Source: Ignavibacteriales bacterium
Lineage (GTDB): Bacteria > Bacteroidota > Ignavibacteria > Ignavibacteriales > Ignavibacteriaceae
NCBI GenBank assembly: GCA_027349615.1
Contig: DAIEML010000170.1
Coordinates: 1-5,011 of the forward strand
Length of the DNA: 5,011 nucleotides
Direction: 5' to 3'
Positions 1 to 5,011 of this stretch are shown here, piece by piece (position 1 is the stretch's first letter; every line of letters begins with the position of its first letter). The notes under the pieces are model-generated. The model did not search any database. It was not told where the DNA came from and was given only the letters and a program-made list of their open reading frames with translations. A program made the translations under genes and the position numbers.

Positions 1-149
1 GACATGTCATATCCTTTTTCTTTTAACCAAAATTCAATTTTAAACGCAATCTCTTTTTCTGAAATTCCAGGACGAATTAATTTAGTCACATCTTCTAAAC
101 ACTCATCGGCAATTTTACATGCGGTTCCTAAATTATTTATTTCTTCTTC
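1..149 (-). other. N-terminal part of an M24 metallopeptidase (Xaa-Pro aminopeptidase-like) domain, fused in frame to the kinase
   Basis: Residues 653-695 of the frame include TACKIADECLEDV, then KLIRPGISEKEIAFKIEF, then WLKEKGYDMS. This is the opening helix pair of the M24 pita-bread fold: bacterial PepP/YqhT proteins have an A..IAD..E..L..IRPG.SE.E...F....G...SF pattern, normally just after a linker resembling EEEIENLRKA. The linker-like EEEINNL at 149-129 could belong to either parent, so the breakpoint lies at about 126-152. The N-terminal creatinase domain that usually precedes M24 is replaced by the kinase. The metal ligands (D, D, H, E, E) would lie beyond the left edge, so catalytic competence cannot be judged. 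The family call rests on pattern recognition. Confidence 0.8.
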
Positions 150-2087
150 GTTAATTCCTTTACCATTATCGTTTACTTGTAATACAAATGTATCAGCTTC
201 TTTTAATATATATACATTAACTTCGTTGGCATCTGCATGCCTTAAAATATTGGTTAATAATTCCTGAAATATTCTGAATGCCGCAGTAGATTTATTTTTA
301 TCTAATTCAATAAAATCAGTCTCTGAATAAAAAGTACTCTTGATTCTATTTCTTTTTTGAAATTCTTCCAATTGCCATTTGATTGCAGCGATTAAGCCTA
401 AATGATCAAGAATATCCGGGCGAAGTTCGGTTGCAATATTTCTTACTGATATAATTGAACTATCAATCATTTTCGCTATTGAGTCCAACTCCGTAACAAT
501 TTGATTTGGTAAGTTTTTACTTCCATCTTTTATATCTTCTGATAAAAGAATTACATCCATTTTTAAGGCGGTTAAAACCTGCCCAAGTTCATCGTGAATT
601 TCTCTGGCAATTTTTGTTCTTTCAGCTTCATGTGCTCTTTGAAGCGACAGATTAAACTTCTGCATATCATTAATTCTTTCGCGAACAGTTTCATCTAGCT
701 TTTTCTGAATCTCTTTTCTTTCGGTAACATTTCTAAATATTCCAAGTAAATATAATTTCCCGCTTTCAAGTTCAACAAAGGAATTAGATATTTCTAGAAA
801 TAATATTTTCGAATTACTAAGAATAATTTTCTGTTCAAGATTTGTAGGGATATTCTTTGACTTAAAATTATTTTTATAATTTTCTAACATCAAAAAAGTA
901 TTTTTATTACCGGAATAAGTAATCGTTAATGGCTTCCCGATTAAGTTCTGCTCATCTATTTCAACCAAATCACAAAACGCTTTATTGACCGATATTATTA
1001 TACCATTTTCGTCTGATAATCTCATAGCATCAACTGAATTTTCCCAAACTGACCGAAACTTAATTTCAGATTTACGAATAACCTCTTCTGATATTTTTCG
1101 TTCAGAAATATCTTTCAGAATTATCACTCCGCCAATATCTTCTCCATTTTTTGAAATACTTGCTTTTGTAAGAAATACATATTTTAAGGATTCATTAACA
1201 TTAAGTTCTAATTCTAAATTTTTATTTTCATCAAGCATTCGAAAATTTGGAAGCAGCGATGTGATATCCCTATTATTTAATTCTTGAAGCGATCTGCAAA
1301 ATATATTTTCTGCTGCTTGATTAATTTGTCTAATTTTATTTTGTGCGTCTACAATTATTACTGCGTCTTGAACATGATTGAAAATATCTTTTGCTGCTTC
1401 TTCAAACCCTAAAGAAAAAAGTTTGTATTTGATTACGGCAACAAATATAAAAATTGATTGAATTACAGTCCCGGATTCAGCGAACTCAACAAAATGTTTT
1501 ATACCAAGGAACAATGGGATTATAACATTCGAAATTAATCCAATAATTAAAGTTATAGATGAACCAAACATTAAAAGAAAGAGCGATCTTTTTAGGTTAA
1601 TATCACTAGTCCTATATCTTTCTTTCCATATCAAAAAGATGGAATAAGCTCCTGGAATTACAATATCAATAATTACGACTGGCACAAACAATGGCCCAAC
1701 TATTTTATTTACTCCCCACACAACGTATTCAAAGTTTGAAAGAACAAGATTTGTTACTAAGCTGATTAATATTGAAATCGAAACCGTATAAAAGCAAAGA
1801 TAATAAAAGAAATCTTTTTTCTTTTCTATAAATAAGTAGATAAAATTCATAAATAAAAAAGCTAAAGAAAGCCATGAGATTGATGCAAGTTTCATTAAAA
1901 ACATTACTATCCAAGAAGGAATATTTTGTCTTAAAATAATCACTATTAATATCCATCCGGCTAGGAAAGAAGCATAAATTAAGAATGCTCGATTTATTGG
2001 ATCTTGTTTTTTTTGTGCAAAGATATATGTCCAAACAAAACCATTGAACAAAAATGCTATTATCGGAATAGTAGAATAAATGTTCAT
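1..2087 (-). CDS. 7TM-PAS-PAS sensor histidine kinase, running in frame into an M24 peptidase-like segment (partial, open at left edge)
   Basis: My translation from ATG 2087-2085 gives 695 codons with no stop; an in-frame TAA at 2093-2091 fixes this as the earliest Met. Residues 1-220 hold about seven hydrophobic helices with the DPINRAF signature of HisKA_7TM sensors. PAS 1 is about 225-330 (ends KDISERK) and PAS 2 about 337-455 (ends RNVTERK). A charged helix leads into a HisKA_3 domain, AREIHDELGQ, whose expected phospho-acceptor is H498, then ELRPDILDHLGL. The HATPase starts normally: N box FRIFQELLTNILRHADA (N613) and G1 box DNGKGI (D640-I645). The expected SLGLxGMxER G2 region is absent; from about residue 653 the sequence is M24-like. 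A NarL-family kinase of this kind phosphorylates a response regulator, but none is visible here. Without the G2 lobe this product should bind ATP poorly or not at all. No Shine-Dalgarno precedes the start. Kinase identity is secure; whether the fused reading frame is real is not. Confidence 0.9.
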   Translation of the reverse strand, partial: MNIYSTIPIIAFLFNGFVWTYIFAQKKQDPINRAFLIYASFLAGWILIVIILRQNIPSWIVMFLMKLASISWLSLAFLFMNFIYLFIEKKKDFFYYLCFYTVSISILISLVTNLVLSNFEYVVWGVNKIVGPLFVPVVIIDIVIPGAYSIFLIWKERYRTSDINLKRSLFLLMFGSSITLIIGLISNVIIPLFLGIKHFVEFAESGTVIQSIFIFVAVIKYKLFSLGFEEAAKDIFNHVQDAVIIVDAQNKIRQINQAAENIFCRSLQELNNRDITSLLPNFRMLDENKNLELELNVNESLKYVFLTKASISKNGEDIGGVIILKDISERKISEEVIRKSEIKFRSVWENSVDAMRLSDENGIIISVNKAFCDLVEIDEQNLIGKPLTITYSGNKNTFLMLENYKNNFKSKNIPTNLEQKIILSNSKILFLEISNSFVELESGKLYLLGIFRNVTERKEIQKKLDETVRERINDMQKFNLSLQRAHEAERTKIAREIHDELGQVLTALKMDVILLSEDIKDGSKNLPNQIVTELDSIAKMIDSSIISVRNIATELRPDILDHLGLIAAIKWQLEEFQKRNRIKSTFYSETDFIELDKNKSTAAFRIFQELLTNILRHADANEVNVYILKEADTFVLQVNDNGKGINEEEINNLGTACKIADECLEDVTKLIRPGISEKEIAFKIEFWLKEKGYDM

Positions 2088-2963: not shown

Positions 2964-4079
2964 ATGTATTTTTTACAAAGGATAGTGAATCTCTTCTTAT
3001 TATTTTTTCTTTTTGTTTATGTTTTTCCATTTACTTTACATTCTCAAGTAAAACTGCCGGTTAATCATAAAACCAACATGATAAATGAAAATATTAAAAG
3101 CATAAAAGCTTATATTACAAAGCTAGGTAAAGATGGAAAATTTTCCGGATCGGCTCTTGTTGCAAAGAATGGCAAAATACTTTTACACCAAACTTATGGA
3201 TATGCGGATAAAAGTTTTAAAGTGCTCAATAAACCGGATACTAAATTTAATCTTGGTTCTTTAAATAAAAGCTTTACTGCGGTTGCAATACTTCAATTAG
3301 TCCAAGAAGGTAAAATTGGAATTGATGATCCAATTGGAAAATACTTGGATTACTTCCCTAAAGATATTGCAGACAAAGTAACAATTAGGCAGCTACTTAA
3401 TATGAGCTCTGGTTGGGGCGATTATTGGAATAATGAATATTTTCTGCAGCATAAAGATGAGTTGAGAAATGTCAGCCAGTATATGAAATTTATTAAAGGT
3501 ATTGGTTTGAATTTTTCGCCTGGATTACACATGCAGCATTCAAATATTGGATTCGAAGTTGCTGGAGCTGTTATCGAAAAAGTCAGCGGAATTGATTACT
3601 TCGATTATATTCGCGAAAAAATTTATAAACCTGCCGGGATGAAAAATTCCGATTCTTTTGATAGAGACGGCCCCACTGATAATTTAGCTTTAGGTTATAC
3701 TAACATCAATGATGCAGATAAAAATAAAACTGGCTTCAATTGGGAAAATACTTATTTACTTTCGCCAAAAGGAACGCCTTCAGGCGGCGGCTATTCTACA
3801 GTAGAAGATATGCTTAAGTTTGACGATGCTCTTAGAAATGGAAAATTAATAAGTAAAGATTATTTTAATTTTATGAACAATGACTTCAAAGGTAAAATCG
3901 GTGATCCTTTTACTGCAGGAAAAATATTACGAAATGCAGGAGCAGCACCAGGTGTAGCGGCATTTTATGCATGCGATATGAAAAATGGATTTACCATTAT
4001 TGTATTATCTAATTATGATCCACCAGAAGGAATTAAAATTGGAAATGAAATTATTAAAATGCTTGAATTACCAAAATGA
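2964..4079 (+). CDS. Secreted beta-lactamase-fold serine hydrolase (PF00144 type) with altered active-site motifs
   Basis: The product is 371 residues, normal for exported members of the class C beta-lactamase / penicillin-binding-protein-like family. Residues 1-27 are a signal peptide with a long hydrophobic core and likely cleavage before Q28; there is no lipobox Cys, so a periplasmic or secreted protein is expected. The domain spans about 45-368. The nucleophile motif SxxK is intact as S99-L-N-K102, followed by the typical SFTAVAILQLVQEGKI helix. The usual YxN motif reads H192-S-N194. The usual HxG/KTG motif before the APG turn reads N324-A-G326. The common HTSG loop reads M147-S-S-G150. 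GGGYSTVEDMLKFDDAL (274-290) and the closing VLSNYDPP strand are typical. Family members include esterases, peptidases and transpeptidase-like enzymes, so the substrate cannot be named, and resistance should not be assumed. The gene stands alone, with a strong ribosome site before it and a terminator after it. Confidence 0.9.
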   Translation: MYFLQRIVNLFLLFFLFVYVFPFTLHSQVKLPVNHKTNMINENIKSIKAYITKLGKDGKFSGSALVAKNGKILLHQTYGYADKSFKVLNKPDTKFNLGSLNKSFTAVAILQLVQEGKIGIDDPIGKYLDYFPKDIADKVTIRQLLNMSSGWGDYWNNEYFLQHKDELRNVSQYMKFIKGIGLNFSPGLHMQHSNIGFEVAGAVIEKVSGIDYFDYIREKIYKPAGMKNSDSFDRDGPTDNLALGYTNINDADKNKTGFNWENTYLLSPKGTPSGGGYSTVEDMLKFDDALRNGKLISKDYFNFMNNDFKGKIGDPFTAGKILRNAGAAPGVAAFYACDMKNGFTIIVLSNYDPPEGIKIGNEIIKMLELPK

Positions 4080-4233: not shown

Positions 4234-5011
4234 TTACTTCGTTGAAAATTTATAGATTGTTATTTGTCTGTAAATTTGTCCAGGTTTTAAAATTACCGAT
4301 GGCCACTGAGGTTCATTCGGAGAATCTGGATAATGCTGAGCTTCTAAACAAAATCCGGTTCTAAAATTATAATGAATTCCATTCTTACCGATTTCTGAAC
4401 CATTTAAAAAATTTCCAGAATAAAATTGAAGCCCCGGCTGATCTGTAAAAACTTGCATGTATCTTCCGGTGGTTGGTTCATATACATCAGCTACTTCACG
4501 AATTTTTTTATTATAATTATTTAAAACCCAATTAAAATCATAACCATGAGCAAATTTTAATTGTTCGAAATTATCATTTATGTGTGCCCCGATTGCAGTA
4601 GGATTGCGAAAGTCTAAAGGCGTATTCACAACATTTTCTAATTTGCCAGTTGGTATAAATTCTTTATTAATCGGAGTAAATTCATTTGCATCAATTTTTA
4701 TTTGATGCTCTAAAATTGTCTTTGTAAAATCACCTGTTAAATTAAAATAAGAATGATGAGACGGATTTAAAATTGTTGTTTTGTTTGTGCTGCCTTCATA
4801 ATTAATTTTTAATTCGTTGTTGTTTGTTAATGTGTAAGTTACATTGAGTATAACTTTGCCAGGATATCCTTGATCGCCATCCGGGCTGACCAAAGTTAGT
4901 TTAATTGAAGGCCCAATCTTAGAGTTAAAAGTTTTTGCAGTCCAAAGCATTTTGTTAAATCCGACTTTCCCGCCATGTAACTGATTTTCACCTTCATTAA
5001 CAGATAATTGA
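4234..5011 (-). CDS. galM: Aldose 1-epimerase (mutarotase), C-terminal part, 5' end beyond the right edge
   Basis: The enzyme interconverts alpha and beta anomers of hexoses such as glucose and galactose, feeding the Leloir pathway or sugar catabolism. The frame is open from the window edge to TAA at 4236-4234, giving 258 codons. ATG 4950-4948 is internal: the codons upstream read NEGENQLHGGKVGFNK, the hallmark N-x-LHGG-x-x-GF motif. All four catalytic positions known from Lactococcus GalM (H96, H170, D243, E304) have counterparts: His of LHGG (4977-4975), His of HHSYFNLTG (4755-4753), Asp of HGYDFNWVL (4539-4537) and Glu of GFCLEAQHYPDSPN (4344-4342). The spacing between the two histidines is 74 residues, the same as in the Lactococcus enzyme. 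QPGLQFYSGNFL is another family signature. By comparison with that enzyme roughly 80-90 N-terminal residues are missing, plus any signal peptide, so its cellular location is unknown. No frameshift is seen. Confidence 0.95.
   Translation of the reverse strand, partial: QLSVNEGENQLHGGKVGFNKMLWTAKTFNSKIGPSIKLTLVSPDGDQGYPGKVILNVTYTLTNNNELKINYEGSTNKTTILNPSHHSYFNLTGDFTKTILEHQIKIDANEFTPINKEFIPTGKLENVVNTPLDFRNPTAIGAHINDNFEQLKFAHGYDFNWVLNNYNKKIREVADVYEPTTGRYMQVFTDQPGLQFYSGNFLNGSEIGKNGIHYNFRTGFCLEAQHYPDSPNEPQWPSVILKPGQIYRQITIYKFSTK

Follow-up and report, generated by a model that had tools for sequence, protein, structure and literature searches.

The locus and its minus-strand frame

The stretch of DNA analysed here, hereafter the window, comprises 5,011 nucleotides of a contig assigned to an Ignavibacteriales bacterium, and its features are collected in Table 1. 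Its minus strand carries an open reading frame (3..2087) of 695 residues, free of stops and still open at the window edge. Read from 2087 to 3, this frame codes for a PAS-PAS-HisKA_3 kinase that passes into the beginning of an M24 peptidase, the changeover falling within bases 129-149. A first-pass annotation had reported such an in-frame switch without an intervening stop, and both the frame and the Pfam matches bear it out.

Table 1. Coordinates of the features of the window, with the evidence for each.
Coordinates	Strand	Feature	Evidence
3..128	-	M24 Xaa-Pro peptidase piece, residues 654-695, equal to P0121 residues 159-200	P0121 identity and PF00557
129..149	-	Switch zone, codons 647-653 (EEEINNL), fitting both parents save at residue 648	Codon-by-codon comparison with P0001 and P0121
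150..2087	-	Membrane PAS-PAS-HisKA_3 kinase, residues 1-646, cut inside HATPase_c just past G1	P0001 identity and Pfam
2964-4079		Serine beta-lactamase-family protein	PF00144, E 1.6e-55
4234-5010		Aldose 1-epimerase, cut by the window edge	PF01263, E 6.8e-62

Pfam recognizes in this protein a PAS domain (E 2.1e-17) and a HisKA_3 domain (PF07730, E 8e-15), followed by HATPase_c, which is matched from profile position 3 to 59 of 111 (protein residues 600-655) and then cut. Directly after comes Peptidase_M24 (PF00557), matched from profile position 4 to 45 of 208 (residues 654-694). Its score for the whole protein, 20.4 bits, falls short of the 23-bit cut-off, which is exceeded (25.5 bits) once the scan is confined to the last 66 residues. 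The NCBIfam models concur: in the 25 families shown (of 35), the kinase models for the most part stop at about residues 644-653, with the exception of LiaS, which extends to 668, and PmrB, which extends to 658, while the peptidase models PRK09795 and PepQ begin at 646-647. The His box REIHDELGQ is found at residue 495, as befits a HisKA_3 phosphoacceptor domain, and the N and G1 boxes at residues 607 and 640. The G2 box is absent, so that HATPase_c is incomplete. Likewise, Peptidase_M24 is present in part, without the metal-ligand motifs searched for, and Pfam detects no Creatinase_N in the protein of the window.

Intact relatives of the two halves

Residues 500-695, used as query, matched 3068 proteins, the best 120 of which were examined. 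The best match among these 120, P0001 (700 residues, on a single 2,379-base contig), belongs with P0002 to the PAS sensor histidine kinases of Ignavibacteria and Bacteroidota, which combine HisKA_3 and HATPase_c. Left of the join it agrees with the window at 638 of 646 residues; on the other side, an ungapped comparison gives 3 of 42. Its HATPase_c domain is complete (Pfam profile positions 3-110 of 111). P0002, from a Bacteroidetes metagenome-assembled genome (78,770-base contig), is 84% identical over 79% of the query region, and its sequence also continues normally past the position of the join. Beyond residue 653 both kinases have a G2 box and the last part of HATPase_c, whereas the window has neither: in P0001 as in P0002 the G2 motif, GMRER, stands at residue 660, and it is absent from the window, which agrees with the earlier remark that the G2 region is missing after the G1 box. 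The G2 pattern was present in 99 of the best 120 of 3068 matches, and 12 more departed from it, yet displayed by eye a G2-like variant in the printed segment; the check left out 9 others, on which the G1 pattern failed.

The closest named relatives among the kinase matches listed come from Bacteroidetes (P0002, P0009 and P0010), Stygiobacter (P0014 and P0019), Melioribacter (P0029) and Ignavibacteriales (P0031). Matches from other lineages, Anaerolineae, Syntrophales, Nitrospirota and Acidobacteriota for example, also figure among those listed, all at 53% identity or less, and it is therefore on the closer matches that the phylum of the kinase rests. When genome contigs were searched with the window kinase protein, the sole match was L001, from Clostridium tarantellae (42% identity, residues 605-653), in the genome of which a PF07730 profile search found no match. 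It may be added that six of the nine differences from P0001 within residues 1-653 fall in residues 1-61 (bases 1905-2087, minus strand), and that at four of these six the residue of the window is that of P0002. This segment may reflect a strain mosaic or recombination within the species.

The peptidase half was searched with the 56-residue stretch up to the window edge, taken from a 400-residue piece so that proteins of 220-700 residues qualified. All 64 proteins retrieved contain PF00557 and none a kinase domain, according to precomputed Pfam domains. The best match, P0121 (378 residues), occurs on three contigs, the longest of 204,936 bases, and is an M24 Xaa-Pro aminopeptidase/dipeptidase in which Creatinase_N and Peptidase_M24 are both complete (Pfam); the solved structures that it matches by sequence are those of proline dipeptidases (best 3q6d, E 2.6e-50). 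Window residues 647-695 agree with P0121 at 49 of 49 positions, and an ungapped comparison on the kinase side of the join gives 1 of 61. With such agreement the M24 identity of the tail, as read from the sequence, is not the work of chance. P0121, however, is a whole enzyme, while the window reaches only profile position 45 of 208, without Creatinase_N and with none of four metal-ligand patterns, all four of which occur in P0121. The first-pass annotation had foreseen a peptidase deprived of its creatinase N domain; this holds for the protein of the window, but not for its M24 parent, which has kept the domain.

Three of the M24 matches are named with a phylum (P0144, P0162 and P0165), each as a Patescibacteria group bacterium, and P0121 is identical to them at 77.5, 53.1 and 72.7%, respectively. 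Relatives at 53-78% identity would make a member of the Patescibacteria the most likely source of P0121. This protein also has a peculiarity of its own: at residues ~64-83 a stretch, SFPRKRESREMDPPIKSEDD, exceeds in length the corresponding region of P0126 and P0144, and differs from that of P0122, P0124 and P0125. It resembles a translated short palindromic repeat that may have been inserted in frame.

The switch zone and the origin of the join

In a codon table spanning residues 638-667, the window follows the kinase through residue 646 (base 150) and the M24 protein from residue 654 (bases 126-128) onward, two bases of codon 646 being also compatible with an Asp codon of the M24 gene. The bases in between, 129-149, fit both parents except for one base; at the residue concerned, 648, the window and P0121 have E, and P0001 and P0002 have D. 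All that P0001 and P0121 have in common at the switch, when compared as proteins, is the word E-[DE]-E-I-N-N-L, which both read in one frame, hence at most 21-23 nucleotides. On either side of it the two proteins do not align, and the parent changes exactly there, identity passing from one intact protein to the other at a short common word. At the protein level, the intact parents and the switch point are established. The minus-strand stretch of the window at this point is GAAGAAGAAATAAATAATTTA, and because both genes read it in phase as EEEINNL, the frame remains open. The first-pass annotation had asked whether homologs change family at residues 647-653, and this is where the kinase P0001 departs and the peptidase P0121 takes over. 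It had also proposed that separate intact genes for kinase and peptidase, covering the same sequences, would betray an artefact; P0001 and P0121 form just such a pair.

How surprising is a common word of this length? Assuming independent bases and genomes of 4 and 1 Mb, some 4, 11 and 41 common 21-mers are expected at 60, 65 and 70% AT, respectively, and the AT content of the window lies between 65 and 80% (300-base windows). As 4-41 such words are expected by chance, one of about 21 bases common to both parents is unremarkable.

Intact parents, nearest named relatives that point to different phyla, and a common word of a size that chance provides: on these grounds we consider it very likely that the window is a chimeric contig, in which the ordinary sensor kinase gene of one bacterium was wrongly joined to the ordinary M24 peptidase gene of another, unrelated one. 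The assembly misjoin that had been listed among the possible readings is therefore strongly supported, P0001 and P0121 covering both halves between them. Bases from about 150 upward would belong to the genome of a Bacteroidota (Ignavibacteria-like) bacterium, and bases 1 to about 128 to that of a different organism, most likely one of the Patescibacteria; the join would have arisen when the library was prepared or the reads were assembled, at a place where no more than 21-23 near-identical nucleotides coincide by chance. Three points are inferred rather than read directly: the stage of the join (assembler, library preparation or amplification), the parental DNA at that place and the taxa of the two parents. 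If the window's own kinase had D at position 648, the exact word would be shorter (15 bases, one mismatch, then 5-7 bases), and would fit less well with a join made by a small-k de Bruijn assembler.

Chimeric contigs created by k-mers common to several genomes are a known fault of assembly (PMC7299287), and they combine in one contig the sequence of two genomes, as we propose for the window. The part of that article which bears on our case deals mainly with related species and with sequencing errors rather than with joins between phyla, whereas the parents of the window apparently belong to different phyla.

The join might instead have been made in a living cell, a fragment of a Patescibacteria-like M24 gene having entered an Ignavibacteria-like genome, recombined at the 21-23 base stretch and truncated the kinase. 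The frame is indeed continuous across the join, and no GC step is visible near it (0.29-0.30 over bases 1-450 in 300-base windows), an observation of little weight, the windows being coarse and both sides AT-rich. This scenario requires that a gene fragment crossed from one phylum to another by way of a very short match, while the 49 M24 residues show no divergence from the intact gene at the protein level; the join is absent from all matches listed (120 of 3068, 64 and 19), and megablast found no DNA similar to bases 1-2100 in plasmid or phage records. We consider it very improbable, as compared with a chimeric contig. In viral contigs, no confirmed relative of P0001 or P0121 was found, and the window had no Rfam match at gathering scores.

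Still less credit can be given to a recent deletion that would have fused a kinase gene with an adjacent pepP gene in one genome, a possibility which had also been raised: the two halves agree in orientation and frame, as it would require, but their nearest named relatives come from different phyla.

As for a genuine new family, in which a membrane PAS sensor carrying half of an ATPase domain would be coupled to a metallopeptidase, an architecture that the first-pass annotation had thought undescribed, it has an open frame to recommend it and nothing else. No protein combining kinase and M24 domains occurs among the best 120 of 3068 kinase matches, among the 64 M24 matches or among 19 proteins found with residues 636-695 (precomputed Pfam domains). 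This last search admitted proteins of 382-1216 residues, so that a full chimera of about 870 residues would have qualified, and the 19 proteins are all of 382-395 residues, with Creatinase_N and M24. Nor does any of the 188 proteins retrieved match both the H-box pattern of kinases and the EPG pattern of M24. These protein searches reach relatives that have short exact words in common, and a remote chimera could escape them, the kinase set consisting of the best 120 of 3068. A literature search for a fusion of a histidine kinase with an M24 peptidase or aminopeptidase P found none, which is no proof of absence from print. The parts themselves speak against the family: the peptidase is cut at the beginning of M24, without Creatinase_N, and the ATPase is cut before G2, hence at least not a whole module. 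Among the readings considered, this one deserves the least belief, its probability being close to nil, and that the frame 2087..3 should yield a functional fusion protein is very unlikely.

Were the fusion true, it would represent a domain architecture absent among the matches listed, and the join would testify to recombination between phyla at very short homology. As the artefact that we believe it to be, its only value is that of a warning: a fusion gene is not proved by a frame that stays open and a composition that matches across a join, because two AT-rich coding sequences can have some 20 in-frame bases in common.

The remainder of the window

Between the kinase frame and the next gene lies an intergenic region of 876 bases (2088-2963), of about 20-24% GC and with no Rfam match at gathering scores. 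Within this region lies a perfect 19-base A/T-rich inverted repeat, possibly due to chance, with its arms at 2333-2351 and 2547-2565. The neighbouring beta-lactamase-family protein scores far under the cut-offs of all the 25 NCBIfam families shown of 51, models of class C beta-lactamases included. A role in resistance is less likely for this reason, and the protein appears more likely to be a general serine hydrolase or peptidase.
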